Shown here: positions 16,467-36,453 of the stretch, piece by piece
Position numbering within the stretch: the first letter of the stretch is position 1
Layout: every line of letters starts with the position of its first letter
Program-made: the position numbers and the translations under genes
Notes under the pieces: generated by a model
Database searches by the model: none
Seen by the model: the letters and a program-made list of their open reading frames with translations, nothing else
What the model was told of the DNA's origin: nothing
From: Rikenella microfusus
GTDB lineage: Bacteria > Bacteroidota > Bacteroidia > Bacteroidales > DYQK01
Reading direction: 5' to 3'
Assembly: GCA_020719385.1 (NCBI GenBank)
Contig: DYQK01000012.1
Coordinates: 5,817-43,561, forward strand
Length of the DNA: 37,745 nucleotides

Positions 16467-18194
16467 TTATTTTTCGAGATTTACTCCGCCGTTGATGTGC
16501 AAAGTAATAGTTTCGAGAGTTTCAAGACCGTCATTATCAACAACTTTCGCTGCGATTTTGTGAATGCCTTTTGTAAATTTATATTTTTGTAAACCGTCTT
16601 TGTCAATGTAAATGTCGGCAGAAAATTTTTCCTCGAAAGAGAAATCCCACGCATAAAATTCGATTTTTTTATTTTCATCGGCAACGCCCTCGGCTTTGAA
16701 CGAGATTTCTGTCAACCCTGATTTATCTGTTTCGAAACTCAAAATTTCCAGTTTTAAACTTGGTTTCTTTGCAAACGGAATAAAACTGTCCACTCGAATT
16801 AACTCAATTATCACATTATCAACACTTTTGAGTCGGGCAATTTCCTCGATTAGTCCTTTTCCAAAAGAAAACGCAATTAAAAACCCTACAGGTTTTCCTG
16901 TTTCGCGGTTTTTTTCGTATAAATTTCTGTCGTTGCGAATAATTGCTGCGTGAAAATTATCGGCGTATTCTCTGCCGATGGAATCTTGTCTTTTGACTTG
17001 AATCGGAATTCCGTCTTTTGTTTTTCCATCAACTCCCTTGTCGCCGCGTTTTTTGAGATTTTCAATTCCGCCAAACATTCGCACAGCAAAACCTTCAAAG
17101 TCGAAAGCATCAGAGTTTCGCACGGTTTCGTAGTCGTATTTGTGCAACACTTTGACAAAAGGTTTCTGCAAAATATCTGCTTGTTTTTGCAGTCGCATTT
17201 CAGAAACAGAAATAGCAGTTGCTAACTCGTCAATTCCTACCCAATTTCGATTCAACTTATCTGCCACGCAAACCGTTGTTCCGCTTCCAAGAAATGGATC
17301 TAAGACAAAATCTCCTTCGTTTGAGGCACAAGAAATAATTCTTTCCAAAAGTTTTTCAGGTTTTTGTGTCGGATAACCAATTCTCTCTTTTGCGTGTGTT
17401 GTAACATTGCTGATGTCGTCCCACCAATCTCCAAGCATTACTCCTTTGCTCGGATTTAAAAAAAGTTTGAGTCTCGGAACACCGTTTTTAGTAAACTCAA
17501 TTAAATTGTTTTCGTACAACAAATCTAATTTTTCAGAGTAAGACATTTTTTTTGCTTTTTCCTCACCAACAAGTTCAATAACAATTTCTCTTGGAATTCC
17601 CCAACTTCTCCCTCTTGACGCAGGATTATACCCTTTCCATTCCTCGTTTTTGGGCTTATTAGTCGGAGCTGTCAAATTGCTTGAACTATAAAAACCTTTT
17701 CCATTTTCGTGGCAATAAATTGCTTTTTTGTATTTTTCGCTGTGTTCTGTAAAAATCGAATAATAAGTGTATTCATCGGTTTTTGTGTAATAAAAAATGC
17801 TATCTTTTAACACAGGTAATTTTTTTGAAGCGTTGCTTTTTGCACTTGTTCGCTTCCACACAATTTCGTTTCTGAAATTATTTGCTCCGAATATTTTGTC
17901 GAGAATAAAACAACGAATATAAGAATTTGCGTGATAATCGCAATGCAGAAATATTGCCCCTGTCGGTTTCAAAAGTCGATGCATTTGCTCAACTCTTGGT
18001 TTTAACCATTCGATAAAGTTCATTATTCCGCCTGCCCAGCGGTCTTTGTAACTGCGAAGTTCTTGTGCCTCGCCCCAAATTAACTCTTGATTTTTTCCTG
18101 TAAAAAACGGCGGGTCGAGATAAATTAAATCAAAAATCTCGTTTTCCATTTTTTTCATTATCTCAAGATTGTCGCCCAAAAGTAACTGATTCAT
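16467..18194 (-). CDS. fused DNA methyltransferase / PD-(D/E)XK nuclease / PKD-like protein
   Basis: With ATG 18194 this is 575 residues. The frame runs upstream to 18257, but the -7 element at 18209-18216 falls inside that extension. Residues 1-340 are a beta-class amino-methyltransferase: motif IV LDPPF at 26-30, target-recognition insert about 120-260, GYPTQKP at 273-279 and motif I DPFLGSGTT at 299-307. Residues about 350-465 look like an Mrr-type nuclease: FEGFAVRMFGG, Asp389 in DKGVDG, then Gln399 and Lys401 in IPIQVKRQ. The last 85 residues resemble a PKD fold (FYAWDF, IHKIAAKVVDNDGLETLETITL). The likely role is single-chain restriction-modification with a methyltransferase setting specificity. 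A regulatory nuclease-like domain is an alternative. The cupin gene follows by 8 nt. Confidence 0.8.
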   Translation of the reverse strand: MNQLLLGDNLEIMKKMENEIFDLIYLDPPFFTGKNQELIWGEAQELRSYKDRWAGGIMNFIEWLKPRVEQMHRLLKPTGAIFLHCDYHANSYIRCFILDKIFGANNFRNEIVWKRTSAKSNASKKLPVLKDSIFYYTKTDEYTYYSIFTEHSEKYKKAIYCHENGKGFYSSSNLTAPTNKPKNEEWKGYNPASRGRSWGIPREIVIELVGEEKAKKMSYSEKLDLLYENNLIEFTKNGVPRLKLFLNPSKGVMLGDWWDDISNVTTHAKERIGYPTQKPEKLLERIISCASNEGDFVLDPFLGSGTTVCVADKLNRNWVGIDELATAISVSEMRLQKQADILQKPFVKVLHKYDYETVRNSDAFDFEGFAVRMFGGIENLKKRGDKGVDGKTKDGIPIQVKRQDSIGREYADNFHAAIIRNDRNLYEKNRETGKPVGFLIAFSFGKGLIEEIARLKSVDNVIIELIRVDSFIPFAKKPSLKLEILSFETDKSGLTEISFKAEGVADENKKIEFYAWDFSFEEKFSADIYIDKDGLQKYKFTKGIHKIAAKVVDNDGLETLETITLHINGGVNLEK

Positions 18195-18208
18195 TATTTT
18201 TTTTTTTG

Positions 18209-18216
18209 CAAAAATA
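18209..18216 (-). promoter_or_regulatory. -7 promoter element (TATTTTTG) of the methyltransferase/nuclease fusion
   Basis: TAnnTTTG match on the minus strand 14 nt before ATG 18194. It decides against the longer reading frame. Confidence 0.6.
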
Positions 18217-18295
18217 AAAAAATTTATAATTATGTAATTTCGATAAAAAATTTTCACAAAATTAAAAAATATTTTTGTTTTTTAAATAATTTTTA

Positions 18296-22130: not shown

Positions 22131-23024
22131 TCAATGATTTTTCATTTCAAAAATTCTGTTTTCTGCTAATTTTATATATTCTAAATTATTTTCGTAGCCG
22201 ATATATTTTCGTTCAGATTTTAAAGCAGCAATTGCTGTTGTCCCGCTGCCCATAAAAGGATCAAAAATTATGTCATTTTTGAAGGAATAAAGTTGTATTA
22301 GTCGATAAGGCAATTCGACAGGAAAAGGAGCAGGATGTCCGATTCGCTTTGCAGATTCGGTGTTCATTGCCCAAATTGATTTTGTCCATTCCATAAATTG
22401 TTCCTTCGAAATTGTGTTTTCTCGATTTTTTTGTTCGCGTTTATAATTTCCTTTCGAAAAAATTAAAATATATTCGTGAATATCTCGTAAAATTGGGTTA
22501 CTTGCTGACTGCCAACTTCCCCAAGCAGTAGAAGTGCCTGCACCTGCCGATTTATTCCAAATAATTTCGCCGCGCATATTAAATCCAATTTCTAACATTA
22601 TCTGTGAGATATAATCAGAAATCGGAATGTAAGGTTTTCTGCCTAAATTCGCAACATTGACGCAAGCCCTTCCTCCATTTATCAAAACGCGAAAAGTTTC
22701 GCAAAAAACATTTTTCAGAAAAGTTAAATATTCAGTCAAAGATAAATCGTTGTCATATTCTTTCGCAACATTATACGGCGGCGAGGTAATCATCAATGCA
22801 ACAGAATTGTCAGGAATTTCTGCGAGATTTTCGGAATTTCCGAGTAAAATTTTATTCTCTAATTCTGTGGGAAAAATATTTTCGACAGAATTGTCAATAT
22901 TTTTTACAGATAATTCGCTGTATAATTTTGTGTCATAAAACTTCGAAGAATCATGATTTACGCGGCTGGTTGTGCCGAAACTGCTTGTTTTTGTGCCTTT
23001 TCGAGATTTTTTTATTGTTTCCAT
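22131..23024 (-). CDS. type II site-specific DNA methyltransferase (beta class)
   Basis: This 297-residue amino-methyltransferase has motif IV before motif I (beta class): TSPPYNVAKEY, then EIIWNKSAGAGTSTAWGSW, then FDPFMGSGTTAIAAL and YIGYENNLEYIKLAENRI. The SPPY form is common in N4-cytosine methyltransferases but also occurs in N6-adenine enzymes. The frame runs 12 nt further to a TTG at 23036; ATG 23024 is preferred. That ATG lies upstream of the stop of the restriction endonuclease gene, overlapping it by 13 nt, so the pair is translationally linked. It protects host DNA from the partner endonuclease. Confidence 0.88.
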   Translation of the reverse strand: METIKKSRKGTKTSSFGTTSRVNHDSSKFYDTKLYSELSVKNIDNSVENIFPTELENKILLGNSENLAEIPDNSVALMITSPPYNVAKEYDNDLSLTEYLTFLKNVFCETFRVLINGGRACVNVANLGRKPYIPISDYISQIMLEIGFNMRGEIIWNKSAGAGTSTAWGSWQSASNPILRDIHEYILIFSKGNYKREQKNRENTISKEQFMEWTKSIWAMNTESAKRIGHPAPFPVELPYRLIQLYSFKNDIIFDPFMGSGTTAIAALKSERKYIGYENNLEYIKLAENRIFEMKNH

Positions 23025-23638
23025 AAATCGAGCCAACGTTCAAAATTGTTAAAATTAATTTTTTCTTTTTTCCAAAAAATTTTTATTTTCAAAGTTTCGC
23101 TATCATCAAGTAAGGTTCGCGAACCCTTCGCAGACATTTCTACACCCCGCGGGTTAGTACCTTTTTTAGGAAGTTTTATGTAATTTTCGCGACCAATTTT
23201 CGCAAGAATTTTAATTTGAGTTTTTTTTGAAATAAAATACAAACCACCTTCGCCATTCCAAATAATTTGAGACAAAAGCAAATCGCAATTTAGAGAATAA
23301 TTTTTAGCAAATTCAAAAGATTTTTCCGCATCAACGGTCCAAATTAATTTTATTCCCGAATTTTTGCCCGAAATAGTTTTTATTGAAATTGGATTTTCGA
23401 AAACTTCAACATCAACTTCAGATTCGGTGATAGGAATGTCTGTTTGTACATTTTTTTCACCGAATTTGTAAATCAATAACGCAACTAAAATTTTTTCTCG
23501 CACCGAACCAACTTCCATTCCGATTTTTCCTGCTCTTGAACTTTCGAGTTCGGCAATTTGAAAAAGTGTTGGCAATTTTTGTTGAATTTTTTCGACAATT
23601 TCTTTGTCTGTAAATAATTCTAAAATTTTTGAACTCAT
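23012..23638 (-). CDS. type II restriction endonuclease, possibly ThaI family
   Basis: This 208-residue protein is directly upstream of and overlapping a cognate methyltransferase. It looks like a PD-(D/E)XK nuclease: MEVGSVREKILVALLIYKFG supplies a helix with Glu42 and Glu48, and Asp76 (ESEVDVEVF) is followed after eight residues by SIK (85-87). An S-x-K variant is known in Cfr10I-type enzymes. WTVDAEKSFEF, NCDLLLSQIIWNGEGGLYFI and KGTNPRGVEMS remind me of ThaI-family enzymes, which cut CGCG, but I recall this only loosely. No -7 element is visible between its start and the speD-speE gene, only a strong hairpin. Confidence 0.72.
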   Translation of the reverse strand: MSSKILELFTDKEIVEKIQQKLPTLFQIAELESSRAGKIGMEVGSVREKILVALLIYKFGEKNVQTDIPITESEVDVEVFENPISIKTISGKNSGIKLIWTVDAEKSFEFAKNYSLNCDLLLSQIIWNGEGGLYFISKKTQIKILAKIGRENYIKLPKKGTNPRGVEMSAKGSRTLLDDSETLKIKIFWKKEKINFNNFERWLDLWKQ

Positions 23639-23697: not shown

Positions 23698-24972
23698 TTA
23701 TTTGTAAAGCAATTCTCTCACATAATTCGGCAAAACAAAAACGCTTCTGTGAATTTCCTCGTTGTAAAATTTCAATTTATGTTGTAAAGTGAAATTTTTT
23801 GCTTTTTCCACATCAAAATCTTTCACAGGATTCAGACCGTTTTTCGAACAAAGACAAAAACCCCACAAACCTGAAGGATAAGTCGGAATATTTGCCAAAT
23901 ACGGATGACAATTTGTTTTTCCAAAAATTCTGTTCATAACAGCAAAAATTTCTGAGTAAACTTCCGTATTATACCACGGCGATTCTGACTGATTTGTGAA
24001 AATGCCGTTTGGTTTTAAGATTCGGTGAATATTTCGGTAAAAATCTTCGGTAAAAATTCCTTCAGAAGGACCGCCCGGGTCGGTGCTGTCGACTAAAACT
24101 ATATCATAAGTTTCATTCGGCGCATTTTTTACAAACGCAATTCCGTCTTCGACTCGAAGGTCAACTCTCGGATTATCAAACGAATTCGCCATTTGCGGCA
24201 AATGTAAACGACTTGCTTTTATCACCAACTCGTCAATTTCAACAATTGTAATTTTCGAAATCGATTCGTGTTTTAAAAGTTGCGTAACAACTCCGCCGTC
24301 TCCTGCTCCGATGACTAAAACTTTTTCAGGTTTTGGGTGCGAAAGACAAGGAACATGCGAAATTGCCTCGTGATACACAAACTCGTCTCGCTCGGTTGTC
24401 ATTACTTTGCCGTCAATAATCAACATTTTGCCGTATTCGAGAGTATCATACATTTCGACTTTTTGATATTGCGAAGTCTCTCGAAACAACATTTCTCCCG
24501 TATGACGAACTGAGAATGCAATATTTGGATTTCTTTCTGTAAACCAAACATTTCTTTCGTAAACAGGTTTTGCGTTCGTCGCAGGAATTTTGTCAATCTC
24601 GTACTCAAATTTGGGGAGAAGATGTAATTGTCCTCTCAACAATTCCATTGCTGAAACGTGTTTCGCCGACAATTTTTCTTTCAAAAAATCGAAAGCAATC
24701 CAAGGATTAATTAAACTTCCGCAAGTGTAAATATCTACGGCGGCATATCGATATTCGGGCCAAGTATGAATTGCCAAATGACTTTCCTGAATCACAACAA
24801 CTCCCGAAACGCCGAAGGGCGAAAAATGATGAAATGTCGAATTGATAATTGTTGCGTCAGCCTGTTTTGCCGCTTCGAGCATATAATTTTCAATATCAAC
24901 AACATCTCGCAAAACTTCTTCGTTGCAGTCGTACAATTCAACTAAAATATGTCTTCCTAAACTTCCGTTCAT
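23698..24972 (-). CDS. fused S-adenosylmethionine decarboxylase / spermidine synthase
   Basis: One 424-residue chain combines two consecutive polyamine enzymes. Residues 1-115 are a prokaryotic AdoMet decarboxylase (SpeD): GRHILVELYDC, then IQESHLAIHTWPEYRYAAVDIYTCG, in which Glu63-Ser64 is the self-cleavage site giving the pyruvoyl group. His69 and Cys84 are the expected helpers. Residues about 140-424 are an aminopropyltransferase (SpeE): RETSQYQKVEMYDTLEYGKMLIIDG, VLVIGAGDGGVV, DSTDPGGPSEGIFTEDFY and NQSESPW. The chain would be cut at Ser64, leaving a small beta piece and an alpha piece carrying the transferase. It starts 13 nt after the peroxiredoxin gene, so they share a transcript. Ornithine or arginine decarboxylase is not nearby. 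Confidence 0.9.
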   Translation of the reverse strand: MNGSLGRHILVELYDCNEEVLRDVVDIENYMLEAAKQADATIINSTFHHFSPFGVSGVVVIQESHLAIHTWPEYRYAAVDIYTCGSLINPWIAFDFLKEKLSAKHVSAMELLRGQLHLLPKFEYEIDKIPATNAKPVYERNVWFTERNPNIAFSVRHTGEMLFRETSQYQKVEMYDTLEYGKMLIIDGKVMTTERDEFVYHEAISHVPCLSHPKPEKVLVIGAGDGGVVTQLLKHESISKITIVEIDELVIKASRLHLPQMANSFDNPRVDLRVEDGIAFVKNAPNETYDIVLVDSTDPGGPSEGIFTEDFYRNIHRILKPNGIFTNQSESPWYNTEVYSEIFAVMNRIFGKTNCHPYLANIPTYPSGLWGFCLCSKNGLNPVKDFDVEKAKNFTLQHKLKFYNEEIHRSVFVLPNYVRELLYK

Positions 24973-27897: not shown

Positions 27898-30800
27898 CTA
27901 AAATCTTATTCCTAAAACTAAAATATCATCGATTTGTCTGCTGTAACCTTTCCAATTTTGATGAGTTTGCCACAAAATTTCCTTTTGTTCTTCCAAAGGA
28001 AGATGAGAAATCTCTAATAGTAATTGTTTAAAGCGTCTCGTTTTAAATTTTTCTCGATTCGTTTCGTTAAATTGGTCGATATAACCGTCTGAAAACAAAT
28101 AAATAACATCATTTTTCTGAATTTCAACATACTGAGATTCAAAACTTTTTTCTTTCGCATAAATTCCTATCGGATTCGAAGTTGCTTTCAACTCGATAAG
28201 TTGTTTATCACGAATGAGAAAGGCAGAATTGTATGCACCTGCAAAATCAAGAATGTTCGTTTCGAGATTTAAAGCACAAAAAGCGATGTCCATTCCGTCT
28301 CTTGAGTCGAGTTTTTCGTTGGTTTGCTTCAAAGTTTTTTTAATTTGAATGCGAAGTTCCTCTAAAACTTGATACGAGTTTTGTATATCTTCTCGTCTTG
28401 TGATTTCGTTTAACAAAGAAATTCCCAAGGCACTGACAAACGCCCCAGGAACGCCGTGACCTGTGCAGTCTGCGACTGAGAAAAGTAAATGTTGATGAAT
28501 TTGCGAGACCCAATAAAAATCGCCTGAGACAACATCTCTTGGCTGAAATAAAATAAAATAATCTGAAAAACATTGCTCGAAAATTTCGCTTTGCGGAAGC
28601 ATTGCTGCTTGAATTCGGCTTGCGTAATTGATGCTGTCGGTGATTTCTTTGTGTGCTTTCTCGATTTTCTGCTTTTGTCGAATCACTTCGGCGGTTCTTT
28701 CTGCAACTTTTCGCTCCAAAATATTTTGAATCTGAATTAAATTGCGTTCGCGAATTTTTATAAACAAAAATATCGCTGAACCAACAATCAAAAAATACAT
28801 CACATACGCAACATTTGTGCGATACCAAGGTGGACGAATGCGAATTTTTAAACTGCACCCAATCTCATTCCAAATTCCGTCATTATTTGAACCTTTTACC
28901 TTGAAAAAATAACGTCCGGGCGAGAGATTCGGCACAATGACAAAATTTCGCGTACCAATTTCGAGATATTCGTCCATTAAACCTTCGATTTTATAGGAAT
29001 ATTTATTTTTCTCAGGTTTCGTAAAATCAAGAGCCGCCAGTTCAATGACAAATTCGTAATAATCCGAATTTAAAATTAACTCGTCATTTTCGCCAATACG
29101 AATTTTAATTTTTTTGTTAAAATCATTTTTCACAATTCCTGAAATAACTACCGGCGGAATATAATCGTTGTCTCGCAAAGAATCGGGATAAAAAGAGTTT
29201 AAACCGTTCATTCCGCCGAAAAAGATTTCGCCATCCGCACTTTTATAACGAGACTGCAAATTAAACTCGACACTTTGCAAACCTTCTTCGACAGAATAAG
29301 TTCGAAATGTCTTTGTTTCTCTATAAAAACGCGAGAGTCCGTTTCCTGTTGCGAACCAAAGATTTTTTCGGTTGTCCTCCAAAATCTCATACGTTATATT
29401 GCTGGGCAAACCGTTTTCTTTGCTGTACAACGAAAATTTTCTCGTTTTTTTATCAAAAACATTGACGCCGTCGTTAGTTCCAATCCAAATTTTTCCCTCA
29501 AAATCCTCACACAACGCAACAACAAAATTATTTGACAAAGAATTTACGTTTCCTGTTTCTCTCTGAAAATGTGTAAAACTTTGATTTTTAACGTTATACC
29601 AATCTAATCCATTTGAAGTAGCAATCCAAATATCGCCGTCCTTGTCGCAAATGATATTATAAATTAAATTTGAGGAGATTCTTGGTTCTGAAGTTGCCGC
29701 AACGAAATGCTTCGAAAAACTGTTATTTAAGTCAAAAATATAAACTCCGTTTTGCGTTCCGACCCAATATTTATTTTCCTTATCCTGTTTTATAGAAGTA
29801 ATTCGCAAATTATTGAAGTTCGGCAAATCTGAATTGTTAAAAAATTCGCTATAAGGAACGAAAGAATTTTTTTCTTTGTTGTAAATTGAGATTCCGTTTC
29901 GAGTGCCGAGCCAAATTTGCTTTTTGTTGTCCTCGAAAATTACGTGAACAAAATCGTTAGAAATATAATAATTTCCTTTGCCTTGCGTAGAGAAATGTTC
30001 AACTTTTTGCGTTTTGCGGTCAAAAATATTGAGTCCTTTTCCCCAATTTCCGACCCAAACTTTTCCGCTTTCGTCCTTATAAACGCCTGCGATGATGTTG
30101 TCCAAAAAATTTACGGAATAAATGCCGTTATTTTTGCGATAAAGATTAAACTTAGGTCTTTTCAAATCTGCTTTTGCGATGCCGTTTAATGTTCCTGCCC
30201 ACAAATTTTTCGATTTATCAAAAAATAACGACAAAACATCATCACTCAATAAACCGCTTTGCGTATTGTAAGTTTCGACAAAAACGATTTTATTTTGTTT
30301 GAGATAACATTTGTTTAAACCGCCATATTCCGTTCCAACCCAAATATTTCCTTCAAAATCTTGCTGAATACAACGAATAAAATTATCGCTTAAACGAATT
30401 TTTTGTTGCGAAAATCTCGTAAATTGTTTATTAATTTTGTTAAAACGATTTAAACCGTTTTGCGTTCCGACCCAAATAAATCTGTCTTTGTCCTCGAAAA
30501 GTGCGGTAATTACGTTGCTTGAGAGAGAATTTGTGTCTTTGGGATTTGTAAAATAATTTGTAAACTTTTCTGTTCTTGGGTTAAAACAGGCGAGTCCTTT
30601 GGTTGTGCCGCACCATATTAGTCCTTCGCTGTCTTCGATAATCGGAATATTCTGGTCAAAAACTGACGCATCATACTCAATTTCGGCATTTTGATACGTT
30701 TTTAACTCATCATTTTGTGTGTTGTACAAATTCAGAAATGGCGGCGTGTTGATTAAAATAGTCCAATTACTCCCGACGGCGAGTCCGTAAACGTTGTTAT

Positions 30801-31188
30801 TGAAAACATCTCTGAAATAATTTTTTTTGTAATTAAAACGAGAAAATTTCCCTGTTTTAACATTTAATTTATTGAGTCCGTCTTTTGTCCCGACCCAAAT
30901 ATTACCTGTGCCGTCTTCGGTAATCGAATAAATCCAACTATCAGAAAGTGAGAAACTGTCTGTGAAATTATGATAAAAATTTTCAAAACGGTAACCGTCA
31001 AAGCGATTTAAACCATTTTGTGTGCCGAACCAAATATAGCCCTTGCTGTCTTGATAAACACAATTTCCTACGCTTTGCGACAAACCTTTGTCTACTCCAA
31101 AATGAGTAAAAAATAAGTTCTGTGAAAAGGTTTTTTGTGTGTAAAATATTGAAAATAAACAAATTACAAAAATAAATATTGATTTCAT
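27898..31188 (-). CDS. two-component-regulator-type propeller sensor with SpoIIE/PP2C phosphatase output
   Basis: This is 1096 residues from ATG 31188; a TTG two codons upstream is ignored. A signal peptide (to FSQ, about 24) is followed by repeated blades of the hybrid-two-component propeller type, recognised by recurring WxGTxNGLNxF-like strings (DSKGYIWFGTQNGLNRFDGY, DGTGNIWVGTKDGLNKLN and about a dozen more). Then come a Y_Y_Y domain, a membrane span near 793-812 and a coiled coil (about 818-855). The SpoIIE-like Ser/Thr phosphatase domain is 870-1096, with PRDVVSGDFYW, ADCTGHGVPGAF, MDIAF, SDGYID and RQIDDI. The periplasmic propeller would sense a ligand, often a glycan, and control dephosphorylation in the cytoplasm. 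No anti-anti-sigma partner or sigma factor adjoins. Confidence 0.9.
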   Translation of the reverse strand: MKSIFIFVICLFSIFYTQKTFSQNLFFTHFGVDKGLSQSVGNCVYQDSKGYIWFGTQNGLNRFDGYRFENFYHNFTDSFSLSDSWIYSITEDGTGNIWVGTKDGLNKLNVKTGKFSRFNYKKNYFRDVFNNNVYGLAVGSNWTILINTPPFLNLYNTQNDELKTYQNAEIEYDASVFDQNIPIIEDSEGLIWCGTTKGLACFNPRTEKFTNYFTNPKDTNSLSSNVITALFEDKDRFIWVGTQNGLNRFNKINKQFTRFSQQKIRLSDNFIRCIQQDFEGNIWVGTEYGGLNKCYLKQNKIVFVETYNTQSGLLSDDVLSLFFDKSKNLWAGTLNGIAKADLKRPKFNLYRKNNGIYSVNFLDNIIAGVYKDESGKVWVGNWGKGLNIFDRKTQKVEHFSTQGKGNYYISNDFVHVIFEDNKKQIWLGTRNGISIYNKEKNSFVPYSEFFNNSDLPNFNNLRITSIKQDKENKYWVGTQNGVYIFDLNNSFSKHFVAATSEPRISSNLIYNIICDKDGDIWIATSNGLDWYNVKNQSFTHFQRETGNVNSLSNNFVVALCEDFEGKIWIGTNDGVNVFDKKTRKFSLYSKENGLPSNITYEILEDNRKNLWFATGNGLSRFYRETKTFRTYSVEEGLQSVEFNLQSRYKSADGEIFFGGMNGLNSFYPDSLRDNDYIPPVVISGIVKNDFNKKIKIRIGENDELILNSDYYEFVIELAALDFTKPEKNKYSYKIEGLMDEYLEIGTRNFVIVPNLSPGRYFFKVKGSNNDGIWNEIGCSLKIRIRPPWYRTNVAYVMYFLIVGSAIFLFIKIRERNLIQIQNILERKVAERTAEVIRQKQKIEKAHKEITDSINYASRIQAAMLPQSEIFEQCFSDYFILFQPRDVVSGDFYWVSQIHQHLLFSVADCTGHGVPGAFVSALGISLLNEITRREDIQNSYQVLEELRIQIKKTLKQTNEKLDSRDGMDIAFCALNLETNILDFAGAYNSAFLIRDKQLIELKATSNPIGIYAKEKSFESQYVEIQKNDVIYLFSDGYIDQFNETNREKFKTRRFKQLLLEISHLPLEEQKEILWQTHQNWKGYSRQIDDILVLGIRF

Positions 31189-31210
31189 AAACAAAAAAAT
31201 TTATTTGCAG

Positions 31211-31317: not shown

Positions 31318-31689
31318 CTACTTTGTGGAATATTTATATTTTCCGTCCTCGCCAATCCAAATAGTGATTTCAGAAATACCGCAAAGATTTAACCCATAAA
31401 TTACCACTGAGGTTTGCTCACTTTCATCCTCGGTCAATTTCATATCCCAAGTGCAAGTTTGCTCGCCGTCATCGTTGAAATTTACTTCAATAGTTGCTCC
31501 ATCTGCAACTATATCTTGTGGGAGAATATCTTTTCCCCAATTTGTTGTGTTTGCATCAGTTACATAAACGCCGTAAAGCGACATTCCAGTTTTATTCACG
31601 ATTTTAAAATCTAAAGCGCTTTGAGCATTCGCAAACTGAAAAATGCCGACAAAAGCAAAAATCGCAAATAATGAAATCAATTTTTTCAT
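31318..31689 (-). CDS. small secreted protein of unknown function
   Basis: This is 123 residues with a clear signal peptide (MKKLISLFAIFAFVGIFQFANAQ). The mature 100 residues begin LDFKIVNKTGMSLYGVYVTDANTTNWGKDILPQD, followed by GATIEVNF, CTWDMKL and INLCG-like strands. This is a compact beta-sandwich pattern (a strand, then an NxTG turn, a WG-D segment, and alternating strands) that I have seen in small secreted proteins of several phyla without an assigned function. Two mature cysteines could form one disulfide. It is a single-gene unit with its own promoter and terminator, between the giant repeat protein and the sensor-phosphatase, all on the same strand. Confidence 0.65.
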   Translation of the reverse strand: MKKLISLFAIFAFVGIFQFANAQSALDFKIVNKTGMSLYGVYVTDANTTNWGKDILPQDIVADGATIEVNFNDDGEQTCTWDMKLTEDESEQTSVVIYGLNLCGISEITIWIGEDGKYKYSTK

Positions 31690-31765: not shown

Positions 31766-34700
31766 TTATTTCATCAAACCTTTCTCCTTAAGTGCTTGAT
31801 AATTAGACCGCAAACGCAAAAACCAAAAGATTTTCTCTTCTTGATAAAATTCACTGCTATTCGCAACAGGTCGTTTCACGCGTTGATAAAAATATAGAAA
31901 AAATGATTTCGTCAGACTGCCGTCAGGTTTTTCTGAAAAATAATAAAATGGAAATAAACTTTTTTCTGTCTCACCGTCAAGTTTTTTATTTGCCCAAATC
32001 AAATGACAAAAACGCTTCTCAAAATCGCCGTTTTCGTATTTCTCTTGCGTATAAAGTTTCCACAAAAAATTCTTCGAAGTGCTTTTTGTCGCAAAATTTT
32101 GTTCATATTTGTACAGAAACCACAAAATTCTATGCGTATTTTCAACAGAATCTTGAGAATGATAATAAAACGGCTGAATCGAAAATAATTTCGAAGTTTC
32201 AGTTTTTTCATACCAAACCAAAGGCACAAAACGAAAATATTGATAACTTTTATCTCGTTGATATTCACAAAACGGATATAAAAAACTCCATTCCTTGCGT
32301 TCAGCGTCTTTTTTGTAACGAAATAAAATAAACAAAACATTGAATTTCGAAAACGAATTGTCAACCGAACTCCCTGCAGAAAATATCGGCGCAAACGTAA
32401 ACGACTTATAATTTTGCGTTTTATAACTCCAAATAAGCGGAAAAAAGACTTTGTGATTTCGATTTTTATCCTTCACAGCCCAATAAAGCGGAAAAAAGAC
32501 TTCTTTTTTCGAAAAATTCCCCGAATCTGAATTTGTCTTCGACCAATAAAGCGGAAAAAGTGTTGTAAATTTTTTATTCTCCTCCTCAAACCTCCAAAAT
32601 AACGGCGTAATAACCAAATGCTTTTTATTGTTTTTCAAAGACCTTCCACCCGAATAAAACGGAATAATCGTAAGAGATTTGTAATCAAGATTTTTAGAAT
32701 GCCAAAAAAGCGGAAAAAGTGTGTGATAATTCTTATTCGAAGATTCGTAAGCCCAATAAATTGGGAAAACTACGTTTTTTGAATACATTTCTCCGCCCAT
32801 CTCAAATTTTCGATTCCACCAAATCGGAAACAAAACATTTTTGTAACCAAACTCGTTTCGAGTGTGCCAAAAAAGCGGCGTAATAATCAAATGTTTCTCT
32901 TTGCGTTGCGGCGAATAACCGTAAGAAATAAACGGAACAAAAGTAAACGAATGATAATTCTCATCTTGATATTTCCAAATAAACGGAAAAACAACTTGAT
33001 TATTTTCAAATTTATTCTTCTTCGCCCAAAAAATCGGAAACAAAACGCTTCGATAACTGCTGTCTGTTTTATCTTTTTTGTACCAAAAAAGTGGAAAAAC
33101 AACTTTTTTATTTTTTAAACTTGTCTCGCGCGACCAATAAATTGGAAAAATTGTATTTGCAAATAACGAATCGCCGTTGTAAAGAATCTGTTTTTTCTGC
33201 CACCAAATCGGGAAAAGTACGTTTTCGTAGCCCAATTCTTTGTCATCGAAATGCCAAAAAAACGGAGTTACCGCAAAATACGTAAATTTTGTAAATTTAT
33301 TTTTGCCGTATGAAAAAAATGGAAAAAACGTTCGAGAAGTGCGAAAAGAATTTTCATAATCAAAATAAAACGGAAAAAATGTTTTATTATTTTTTTCTTT
33401 ATCTCGATACGACCAATAAAACGGAAATAAAGTACTTGAATGCAACGTATCATTCGACAAAATCTCGGTTTTATTCCAAAAAAGCGGAAAAAATGTGTTT
33501 GTAATTTTATTTGGCGAGACAAAACGCCAAAAAAGCGGCGTAATTGCCAAATGTTTAACTTTTTTATCAGACGTTTCTCCTTTCGAAAAGAACGGAATAA
33601 ACGTAAATGACTTATAAAATTCACTTTTCAAGTCCCAAATCAAAAAACCATACGACTTATTATTCGTATTTTTGTCTTTGTAACGAAAATAAAACGGAAT
33701 AAAAATGTCTGTGTACCTTGCATTTTCGCCTTCGCCGACTTTTATATTCCAAAAAATCGGGAAAAATGTATTTTTGTATCCGTCTGCGGTTTTGAAATGC
33801 CAAAAAAGCGGCGTTATCGCAAGATGTTTAAACGAAGAATCTTTCGAAATACCTTTCGAAAATAATGGAAAAAACGTTATTGAGTGATATTTCTCATTTT
33901 TCAAATTCCAATACAACGGAAAAAACACAGAATTTTTTTTATAATTGTCTTTGTATTTCCAAAAAATCGGAAAAACGACTAACTTTTGAAACGTATCTTT
34001 ATAATTTTTCACATTGCTGTACCAAAAAATCGGAAAAAAAGTTTTTCGTTGAACATTTTTTTTCGTTTTTGCCCAATAAAACGGAAATAAAACCGTTTTC
34101 TGAAACGTATCTTGCGGCGATTTAACATCTTTGTACCAAAAAATGGGAAAAATTATTTTTTCATTTTCAAATTTATTCCGATAAGAACGAAAAATTAACA
34201 AAAACGAAAAATTTTCGAAGGAATTATAGGAATAAGAAAACTTTTTATAATGAAAAAGCGGAAACAAAGTTTTTTTGTCTTCATATTTATTGCGATAACT
34301 CCACCAAAACGGGAAAAATACGGTTTTTAACGAGGAATCTGAAAAATTATTTCTGTACCAAAAGAGCGGAAATATCATTTTTTCATTTTTCTGTTCATTT
34401 CGAAAACTCCAATAAACATATAAAAACGAAAAAAGCGTTGAAGTGTCGTTTTGCGAATATTCGTTTTTGTAATAAAACATCGGAATCAACGTTTTTCGGT
34501 GTTTGTACTTATCTCGATAACTCCAATAAAACGGGAAAAGCACAGTTTTGCGAATAGTATCTTTTAACAAATAATTGCGTTTATACCAAAAAAACGGAAA
34601 TTGCGTGATTCTCAATATTGACGAATCTTGATAAGTTCCTAAAAGTGCTGGATAAACCGTGTGATGATAAATTGTGTTGTTGAAATTTTTCTCTTTTCGA

Positions 34701-35707
34701 TATCGATAAATTGGGAAAACAGTTTTTCTATGTTCGTTTTTATCTTGATGAGTCCAAAAAATCGGGAACAAAGTTGTTTTTCGAATCGTATCTTGCAGAT
34801 AAACTTGTTTTTTATTCCAAAAAATTGGGAAAAAAACATTTTTATTTGTTCGCGAGTCTTCGAAATGCCAAAAAAGCATCAGAATCGAGAAATATTTATC
34901 TCTTGCATCAACTTTTGAATTGCCAGCAGAAAATAAGGGCAAAAAAGTAAACGATTTATAACTTTTGTCGTTAAAATTCCACACAATCGGGAAAAAAATA
35001 TTGACTTTTTCGAAAGTATCTCGATATGAGAAATAAAATGGAATCAGAAAATTAGAAAATTCTACACTTTTTTTCTCTTTGTCCAATCCTTCTGCGTGCC
35101 AAAAAAGCGGCGTTATGGCGAAATATTTCTTTTTTTCAGAATTTCCCTTCGCAAAAAGCGGGAAAAATGTTGCGAAAAGTTTGTCTTTGTTGCGAAATTG
35201 CCAATAAAACGGCAAAATAACGAGATGCGAGGTTTGCAAAATTTTGTCATTTTTATAAAACATAAAAAACAACAAATTATTTTTCACAAAAAGTCCGTCT
35301 TGCGATTTAGAAAACTCGGCGGCATTCATATAAGGTAGAAATTCGAGAATTCGTACAGATTTAATTTGCCTGTCTTTTTCGGTATATTTTCGAAAAAGAG
35401 AGGGATAATAAAATGTTGCGAGTCGAAAATCTGAAAAATTTTGCGAGTCGGTTTTCCAAAAAAACGGCAATAAATGCGAATGTTTATAACCTGTTTTGAA
35501 ATTTTCGCGATTTCTGTAAATAGTGAAAAAAATTTGTAAATCTTTCTCGTCTTTGTTTTTTCGATATTGAACGATGGGCCACAGATTTTCGAGTCGCACT
35601 CTTGTTAGTCCGAAGTCAAATTTCATCTGATTTTTTGCCGTGTCGGGCTGTGCGGAGATTGAGAAAATATTTAGAAAAAACAATATGATAAAAAAAAGAG
35701 TTTTCAT
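31766..35707 (-). CDS. giant exported protein built of ~60 aromatic-proline (FPxFW) repeats
   Basis: I cannot assign a family. The 1313-residue protein has a signal peptide (MKTLFFIILFFLNIFSISAQ). Almost everything after residue 75 is a string of units of about 20 residues with the core [T/V]-[L/F]-F-P-[L/I/F]-[F/Y]-W followed by a charged, Lys/Asp/Asn-rich turn; I count about 60 by eye. A second-order repeat is visible. A unit ending PLFSKG or PFFSYG is followed by (K)HLAITPLFWHF, seven times (AITPLFWH, SILMLFWH, AITPLFWH, AITPLFWR, AVTPFFWH, IITPLFWH, VITPLFWR). The units alternate hydrophobic strand and polar turn, suggesting a very large beta-hairpin array, either an outer-membrane barrel or an elongated surface or periplasmic structure. 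The C-terminus (RLRSNYQALKEKGLMK) is not a typical barrel end. Its transcription unit is single-gene. Confidence 0.75.
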   Translation of the reverse strand: MKTLFFIILFFLNIFSISAQPDTAKNQMKFDFGLTRVRLENLWPIVQYRKNKDEKDLQIFFTIYRNRENFKTGYKHSHLLPFFWKTDSQNFSDFRLATFYYPSLFRKYTEKDRQIKSVRILEFLPYMNAAEFSKSQDGLFVKNNLLFFMFYKNDKILQTSHLVILPFYWQFRNKDKLFATFFPLFAKGNSEKKKYFAITPLFWHAEGLDKEKKSVEFSNFLIPFYFSYRDTFEKVNIFFPIVWNFNDKSYKSFTFLPLFSAGNSKVDARDKYFSILMLFWHFEDSRTNKNVFFPIFWNKKQVYLQDTIRKTTLFPIFWTHQDKNEHRKTVFPIYRYRKEKNFNNTIYHHTVYPALLGTYQDSSILRITQFPFFWYKRNYLLKDTIRKTVLFPFYWSYRDKYKHRKTLIPMFYYKNEYSQNDTSTLFSFLYVYWSFRNEQKNEKMIFPLFWYRNNFSDSSLKTVFFPFWWSYRNKYEDKKTLFPLFHYKKFSYSYNSFENFSFLLIFRSYRNKFENEKIIFPIFWYKDVKSPQDTFQKTVLFPFYWAKTKKNVQRKTFFPIFWYSNVKNYKDTFQKLVVFPIFWKYKDNYKKNSVFFPLYWNLKNEKYHSITFFPLFSKGISKDSSFKHLAITPLFWHFKTADGYKNTFFPIFWNIKVGEGENARYTDIFIPFYFRYKDKNTNNKSYGFLIWDLKSEFYKSFTFIPFFSKGETSDKKVKHLAITPLFWRFVSPNKITNTFFPLFWNKTEILSNDTLHSSTLFPFYWSYRDKEKNNKTFFPFYFDYENSFRTSRTFFPFFSYGKNKFTKFTYFAVTPFFWHFDDKELGYENVLFPIWWQKKQILYNGDSLFANTIFPIYWSRETSLKNKKVVFPLFWYKKDKTDSSYRSVLFPIFWAKKNKFENNQVVFPFIWKYQDENYHSFTFVPFISYGYSPQRKEKHLIITPLFWHTRNEFGYKNVLFPIWWNRKFEMGGEMYSKNVVFPIYWAYESSNKNYHTLFPLFWHSKNLDYKSLTIIPFYSGGRSLKNNKKHLVITPLFWRFEEENKKFTTLFPLYWSKTNSDSGNFSKKEVFFPLYWAVKDKNRNHKVFFPLIWSYKTQNYKSFTFAPIFSAGSSVDNSFSKFNVLFILFRYKKDAERKEWSFLYPFCEYQRDKSYQYFRFVPLVWYEKTETSKLFSIQPFYYHSQDSVENTHRILWFLYKYEQNFATKSTSKNFLWKLYTQEKYENGDFEKRFCHLIWANKKLDGETEKSLFPFYYFSEKPDGSLTKSFFLYFYQRVKRPVANSSEFYQEEKIFWFLRLRSNYQALKEKGLMK
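31846..35480 (-). repeat. degenerate tandem repeat array inside the giant gene
   Basis: At DNA level the plus strand repeats strings such as CCAAAAAAgCGGaAAAA or CCAATAAAaCGGaAAAA roughly every 60-90 bp across 3.6 kb; each is the complement of a codon run for F-P-x-F/Y-W. Copies are diverged, so this is an old amplification. Overlapping Lys/Phe-rich frames on the other strand are its by-product. Confidence 0.8.
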
Positions 35708-35988: not shown

Positions 35989-36453
35989 ATGGATGTAGAA
36001 ACAAAACTCATTTACACCAATAATTTAGGAAAAGTGTATTCTGAAAAATTAGAAAAACACTTATTGATTGATGAATTGGAAATTGCAAAACATCTCGCAA
36101 ATTTCGGGAAAACAGTCATTTTGAAAAAGGAAATGGATATTTCGAATATCAAAAATGCAGATGCGGTAGTTGATGGAAAGATAATTGAGTTTAAAACAAT
36201 TTCGAATGCAACAAATTTTAAACGTGCAATTGAAAATGCGTTGCGTAGAAGTAAAAAACAGGCAAAAAATACTTTGTTATATATAAAACAGAAATTTTGC
36301 CTTTCTGATTTATACAGAGGTATTGAAACTGCAATAAAATTTGATAAAAGTAAAAAAATAACAGAAATTCAGATTCTTTTTTCTGATGGAAATTTAAAAA
36401 TTTTGTTGAGAAATCAAATAGAAAATGGTAGTTACAAGGAACTCTTAAAATAA
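35989..36453 (+). CDS. stand-alone CdiA-CT-like PD-(D/E)XK nuclease domain protein
   Basis: This 154-residue soluble protein has no signal peptide. The stretch from residue 28 resembles the tRNA-nuclease CdiA C-terminal domain (PF18451-type). It has DELEIAKHLANFGKTVILKKE (a helix with Glu31 and a strand), then NADAVVDGKIIEFKT, with Asp58, Glu67 and Lys69 as the PD-(D/E)XK triad. A helix IENALRRSKKQAKNTLLYI follows. Related domains end contact-dependent inhibition toxins and phage or ICE-borne proteins. Here it is encoded alone, not as the tail of a large exported protein. It may be a free toxin, a decoy, or a domesticated nuclease. No candidate immunity gene follows; the next 367 bp are noncoding with three hairpins. 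Confidence 0.6.
   Translation: MDVETKLIYTNNLGKVYSEKLEKHLLIDELEIAKHLANFGKTVILKKEMDISNIKNADAVVDGKIIEFKTISNATNFKRAIENALRRSKKQAKNTLLYIKQKFCLSDLYRGIETAIKFDKSKKITEIQILFSDGNLKILLRNQIENGSYKELLK

Follow-up and report, generated by a model that had tools for sequence, protein, structure and literature searches.

The window analysed here, a stretch of 37,745 nucleotides from Rikenella microfusus (assembly GCA_020719385.1, contig DYQK01000012.1, positions 5,817 to 43,561), carries on its minus strand the gene of a giant repeat protein of 1313 amino acids (aa), present in one copy in the source genome. The plus frame of 31766-35707 is riddled with stops and the minus frame is open. The protein begins with MKTLFFIILFFLNIFSISAQ, by eye a plain Sec signal peptide, and complete relatives start with a comparable signal sequence. 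Aromatic residues make up 25% of the chain, and its net charge is +90. The gene and its parts are as follows.

31766..35707, minus: giant repeat protein gene, complete from ATG to stop, 1313 aa (open reading frame, ORF, call)
35651..35707, minus: signal peptide, aa 1-19, MKTLFFIILFFLNIFSISA, with a Bacteroidota-style ...SAQ junction (from the sequence; cleavage site by eye)
35180..35650, minus: conserved N-terminal region, ~aa 20-176, of degenerate units (KFDFGLTR..LWPI..DLQI..SHLLPF..YYPSLF..NNLLFF)
32354..35179, minus: repeat array, ~aa 177-1118, of units of 17/19/21 aa with the core [IVT][LIF]FP[LFIV][FYW]W
33890..34849, minus: alternating long and short units, aa 287-606, spaced 21-17-21-17..., without clear FSxG units (from spacings)
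33617..33889, minus: cycle 1, five units, 91 aa, aa 607-697, FSKG unit first (from spacings)
33344..33616, minus: cycle 2, five units, aa 698-788 (from spacings)
32957..33343, minus: cycle 3, seven units, aa 789-917 (from spacings)
32684..32956, minus: cycle 4, five units, aa 918-1008 (from spacings)
32411..32683, minus: cycle 5, five units, aa 1009-1099 (from spacings)
32366..32956, minus: segment modelled with AlphaFold2, aa 918-1114, 11 units (scores below)
31769..32353, minus: conserved C-terminal region, ~aa 1119-1313, of diverged units, last residues EEKIFWFLRLRSNYQALKEKGLMK, without a terminal aromatic barrel signature

The conserved regions at both ends consist of the same kind of units as the repeats; for the C-terminal region, profile comparison lends this relation a modest degree of support (E 1.8e-4, probability 49%).

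A grammar of units and cycles

An earlier note, made from the letters of this DNA alone, had described a signal-peptide protein of 1313 residues built from about 60 units with a hydrophobic-Pro-aromatic-Trp core, and this description holds: a regular expression finds 52 unit cores, and a position-specific scoring matrix trained on the family finds 60 units. It had not noticed that the gene is on the minus strand, that the period is five units, that each strand is broken by a Pro, or that the protein belongs to a family. From Pro to Pro, the spacing in the window protein is nearly always 17, 19 or 21 residues. In the whole set of 28 family proteins and fragments, with 1280 units, 1092 of the 1166 spacings of 15-30 residues are odd and 74 are even, and because the odd spacings swamp the even ones, the pattern is not a matter of chance composition.

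Above the units lies a second-order period of five units and 91 aa, with the spacings 19-17-21-17-17, which was seen 77 times in the order-level set of relatives. Its units, in order, are E = YHSFTIFPLFSKGHSPDG, A = SHLMITPLFWHFKNPDGYSN, B = NVLFPLWWNKKTGSGEN, C = SNVVFPLYWSYKDK and D = NKVLFPLVWSLKNPKYHS, and the FSxG and ITPLFW units singled out in the earlier note are two of these five. The second-order repeat seen there is real, but the claim that an FSxG unit is always followed by ITPLFW, in seven instances, was too strict: the window protein has eight FSxG-like units (aa 183, 257, 614, 705, 796, 925, 1016 and 1107), and the next unit is I/VTPLFW-like after six of the eight, literally ITPLFW after five, and degenerate after those at aa 257 (FSILMLFW) and aa 1107 (FNVLFILF). 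Over all members, cycles of five units (100 cases) stand beside cycles of four (13), three (3), seven (3) and other lengths. Between cycles of the window protein, DNA identity is 0.54-0.59 and codon position 2 diverges least, which means that what is preserved is the pattern of the protein; inside some other members, recent cycle copies share 92-96% of their DNA. A chance or low-complexity ORF was rejected, given this codon pattern and the relatives found in 24 other genomes.

Strand pairing and local fold

The pairing of the units was read from covariation, as mutual information between positions counted from the Pro in adjacent units, with partners permuted within protein and unit class. Among the 533 adjacent pairs of the order set, the strongest position pairs were 4/-4 (z=10.1), 5/-5 (6.7), 2/-4 (6.1), -3/3 (4.6) and 3/-3 (4.5), with 3/-5 also high, and the antiparallel zero-sum diagonal was the best of all diagonals (10.4). 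The wider set of 1061 pairs puts the same position pairs on top over a higher background, and the zero-sum peaks recur at each spacing of 17, 19 and 21 residues. This covariation shows that adjacent units pair antiparallel in a fixed register, Pro opposite Pro; the same register at all three spacings implies an antiparallel meander with no mean register shift. Units two apart give a weak signal (maximum z 5.1), which fades at greater distance, and at separations of three units or more no peak is comparable to that of adjacent units; long-range packing between units was accordingly rejected. A parallel beta-solenoid in which each unit forms one coil was rejected as well, since the antiparallel diagonal is stronger than the parallel ones. 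We regard the strand grammar as well supported.

A structure model agrees with the earlier suggestion that each unit is one strand plus a turn, which the covariation also bears out. AlphaFold2 was run on aa 918-1114 with an alignment of seven rows from the window protein and its L046 relative; these two apart, the sequences used for covariation lay outside this input. The best model is a sheet with a predicted local distance difference test score (pLDDT) of 78.9 and a predicted template modelling score of 0.63, in which each unit forms a strand interrupted at its Pro. The top match of this model in VIA-align is a fragment of apolipoprotein B-100 (ApoB-100), the human LDL protein whose beta-belt wraps lipid (9coo_A, residues 2832-3009; Z 14.8, root-mean-square deviation 2.5 A over 173 residues), and the rows below it are outer-membrane barrels, with Z up to 12.9 and deviations of 5-11 A. 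AsmA, TamB and VPS13 are not among the 50 rows listed, which excludes nothing. Weak Foldseek matches are to LptC (probability 0.96, E 0.062) and to OspA (2ol7, E 0.054), and a fold search of BFVD returned nothing at E <= 0.001. As far as the model goes, these matches describe a long, gently curved sheet, which locally fits a very large barrel as well; the local fold of the giant protein is moderately supported.

The family and its gene neighbourhoods

Relatives occur in 24 further genomes of the class Bacteroidia. The searches spanned order-, class- and phylum-level samples within Bacteroidota: 12 of the 392 other genomes sampled from the same order and 12 of the 394 others in the class-wide sample are carriers, and in the phylum-wide sample the source genome alone matched, with no further carriers. 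A contig scan with a single sequence gave no locus, and the same scan with an alignment profile gave one; one row of the search-profile alignment A3, which was used as a profile only, holds a single mistyped residue. One relative locus comes from a metagenome-assembled genome whose record is labelled Draconibacterium orientale, a name that belongs to the Marinilabiliales within Bacteroidia and is taken here as labelled. The family is likely under-counted because contigs end inside the gene in several relative genomes, probably where the repeats disrupted assembly. Complete members are 771-1830 aa long, a 2.4-fold range, with conserved ends and a repeat number free to vary; within one genus (L110, L112 and L115), the lengths are 1200, 1326 and 1830 aa.

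The earlier statement that no named family has this architecture stood up to the database searches, with nothing for the giant protein in Pfam or NCBIfam at E <= 1 and no relevant match in sequence searches of the PDB. The literature yielded no described family matching it, and the one match in PHROG is meaningless. A phage or plasmid origin was rejected, with no match among phages, plasmids and viral contigs. Repeat proteins of an 'FPLFW' type may occur in Myxococcota too. On sequence evidence, then, this is a real, uncatalogued family of Bacteroidia proteins that carry an export signal.

Two features follow the giant gene directly.

31318..31689, minus: 123-aa exported protein, possible operon partner, on the strand of the giant gene and 76 bp downstream of it
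31292-31273, minus: terminator-like stem after the 123-aa gene

The 123-aa protein has no Pfam match, and none of the listed neighbourhoods of relatives contained it. Gene neighbours of the relatives are conserved only within close relatives. In all three genomes of the genus of L110, L112 and L115, the giant gene lies beside an aminopeptidase-like gene and a gene for a WG-repeat protein (by eye), and the only other conserved neighbourhood seen is that of one further genus (L048/L053). In two relatives (L050:8967-11597 and L057:611-3223), a few genes separate the giant gene from one for a TPR-like lipoprotein resembling SprE/PorW, possibly by chance. Elsewhere in the window, a large sensor-like protein with Reg_prop propeller repeats and a Y_Y_Y domain is encoded downstream on the same strand as the giant gene (27898-31194, minus) and ends in a SpoIIE phosphatase domain in place of a kinase. 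Divergent from the giant gene, a short protein of 154 aa (35989-36453, plus) lacks a CdiA body but has the C-terminal domain of contact-dependent inhibition proteins, CdiA_C (PF18451). A 424-aa ORF (23698-24972, minus) looks by eye like a fusion of S-adenosylmethionine (AdoMet) decarboxylase and spermidine synthase. Also by eye, a large DNA methyltransferase-like ORF (16467-18257, minus) and a separate pair of a methyltransferase and a nuclease-like protein (22131-23638, minus) probably represent two restriction-modification systems.

What the ribbon may be

The reading that we prefer, though with somewhat less than even confidence, is that of an open, two-sided beta-belt associated with lipid or membrane. 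Once the signal peptide is removed, nearly the whole chain would fold as one antiparallel beta-meander ribbon, each unit contributing a strand of ~13-15 residues with a Pro break in its middle and a turn, tight in units of 17 residues and longer in those of 19 or 21. With its register constant and Pro opposite Pro, the ribbon would show no steady shift in register, and neither edge would be fixed as its top or bottom. An apolar strip ~7 residues wide would cross it between polar, lysine-rich edges, and the result would be an open amphipathic belt on lipid or membrane, similar to ApoB, whose length is set by the count of five-strand cycles. By general beta-sheet geometry, at ~4.8 A per strand, 50-100 strands measure roughly 25-45 nm. 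The strip occupies positions -3 to +3, with T/V/I-F-L-W on one face and L-P-F/Y/W on the other; the turns are rich in Lys, and near-complete members from the order have net charges of +59 to +113. Strip and turns would suit contact with the acyl chains and head groups of lipids, and from such features we infer lipid binding, as well as the location and role of the protein. It is a more speculative step, and one that we think rather improbable, that Bacteroidia make giant ApoB-like beta-belts independently of animal ApoB, as exported, two-sided and expandable ribbons round or along lipid (a lipoprotein-like particle, the rim of a bilayer disc or a vesicle), with particle size set as five-strand cycles are gained and lost in tandem.

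Several observations weigh against the belt. Mid-strand, both faces are apolar, unlike in a simple belt that is amphipathic on one face, and no conserved neighbour gene in the listed neighbourhoods of the relatives points to lipid metabolism. The structural prediction that the earlier note had proposed did give a sheet for the 11-unit segment, but only one of the five models, made from a seven-row alignment of a fragment, was confident, the others having pLDDT 34-55, and a whole relative of 902 aa, run with a two-row alignment, reached pLDDT 28. Foldseek alone gave the 11-unit model no match at E <= 0.001, and a giant barrel would be nearly flat over 11 strands as well, making the ApoB match compatible with a barrel. 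In two relatives the loops are sided: at L116, where an in-frame stop breaks the gene into two ORFs, all nine long loops of one ORF lie on one edge and the cycles have four units, and in L058, 11 of the 14 long loops lie on one edge.

The strongest rival, in our view still unlikely, is a lipid-conducting bridge between the membranes, of the kind formed by AsmA/TamB or by repeating-beta-groove (RBG) proteins of eukaryotes. RBG modules consist of a five-strand meander plus a crossing element, with strand number varying from 3 to 7 (PMC7613979). The five-strand modules of the giant protein, variable in number, resemble such domains, and the weak match to LptC points the same way. Yet the five strands and their turns fill the 91 aa, leaving no sixth, crossing element between cycles; besides the signal peptide there is no N-terminal membrane anchor, and at E 1 neither Pfam nor NCBIfam matched the protein to Chorein_N, AsmA or TamB domains. 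The 1.5-fold difference in length among L110, L112 and L115 would be odd for a gap of fixed width, and the length range of the whole family likewise speaks against a bridge of fixed span, which bears on the earlier suggestion of a ribbon that crosses the periplasm.

A structural or adhesive ribbon at the surface or outside the cell, such as a matrix, a sheath or an amyloid-like sheet with no special lipid role, seems to us slightly harder to credit. An export signal and a highly repetitive, aromatic-rich and basic sequence are common among adhesive and matrix proteins, and the labile repeat number, with near-identical recent copies in some genomes, would suit such a polymer. Against this, an apolar strip that is wide and present on both faces would have to be buried, the conservation of the ends goes beyond what a simple matrix polymer would lead one to expect, and neither Pfam nor NCBIfam matched a type IX secretion domain at the C-terminus.

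Least probable of these, to us, is a giant beta-barrel integral to the outer membrane, which with 50-100 strands would exceed SprA in size and in which the Trp residues at the ends of the strip would form two interfacial girdles. Such a barrel would account for the export signal, the apolar strip of ~7 residues bordered by Trp and the outer-membrane barrels that fill the VIA-align rows after the first, and the loops do alternate between long and short, as in hairpins, at aa 294-597 of the window protein and in L116. Known bacterial barrels have an even number of strands, short periplasmic turns and long outer loops. In the giant proteins the cycles are mostly odd in length, which would make neighbouring cycles face opposite ways, and strand parity between the conserved landmarks at the ends is not kept, with 11 relatives even and 7 odd; the four relatives without imputed gaps have 66 and 52 units, even, and 67 and 63, odd. 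Long loops prefer neither edge, their mean share on the majority edge being 0.602 against 0.603 by chance, although the parity and loop-edge tests both have weak points in the imputation of gaps and in taking one unit as one strand. Odd cycles, non-conserved parity and evenly spread loops together make an ordinary, sided outer-membrane barrel unlikely; all three results agree with a ribbon whose two edges see one and the same environment. Closed barrels, moreover, need shear, and the covariation would put the mean register shift here at zero; both faces are apolar, and the C-terminal strand has no aromatic signature, the chain ending in RLRSNYQALKEKGLMK and the relatives being alike, as the earlier note had remarked of this protein. 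Of its two proposals, an exceptionally large barrel or a long beta-ribbon, the ribbon is thus the one that we retain.

Whichever reading is correct, the family adds a recurrent, uncatalogued group of exported proteins of very large size, whose grammar from sequence to strand is unusually clear and lets the strand number change by one unit at a time. Lipid binding, if true, would make it a bacterial counterpart of the ApoB belt, and closure in a membrane, if true, a barrel larger than the 36-strand SprA. With the beta-belt of ApoB-100 (large lipid transfer protein superfamily, 9coo_A), the giant protein would share a long antiparallel meander ribbon of ~16-18 residues per strand; it differs in being bacterial, in its regular 91-aa repeats, in the Pro of every strand and in faces that are both apolar mid-strand, and it has neither sequence similarity to ApoB-100 in the PDB searches nor a vitellogenin-type N-terminal domain (Pfam, even at E 1). 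Borrelia OspA offers a free-standing, single-layer antiparallel sheet, but that sheet is short and polar on its exposed faces, whereas the giant protein has apolar faces and its ribbon would run to 50-100 strands. VPS13/ATG2 and AsmA/TamB have a similar repeated five-stranded meander, with variable module number and occasional variants of 3-7 strands, from which the giant protein departs in lacking the crossing element between modules and the membrane anchor. SprA, finally, is likewise a single exported chain of dozens of antiparallel strands from a Bacteroidota host, and barrels of its type also have aromatic residues bordering the apolar strip; what sets the giant protein apart from them is the absence of sidedness, of conserved strand parity, of a barrel C-terminus and, going by covariation, of a net register shift.

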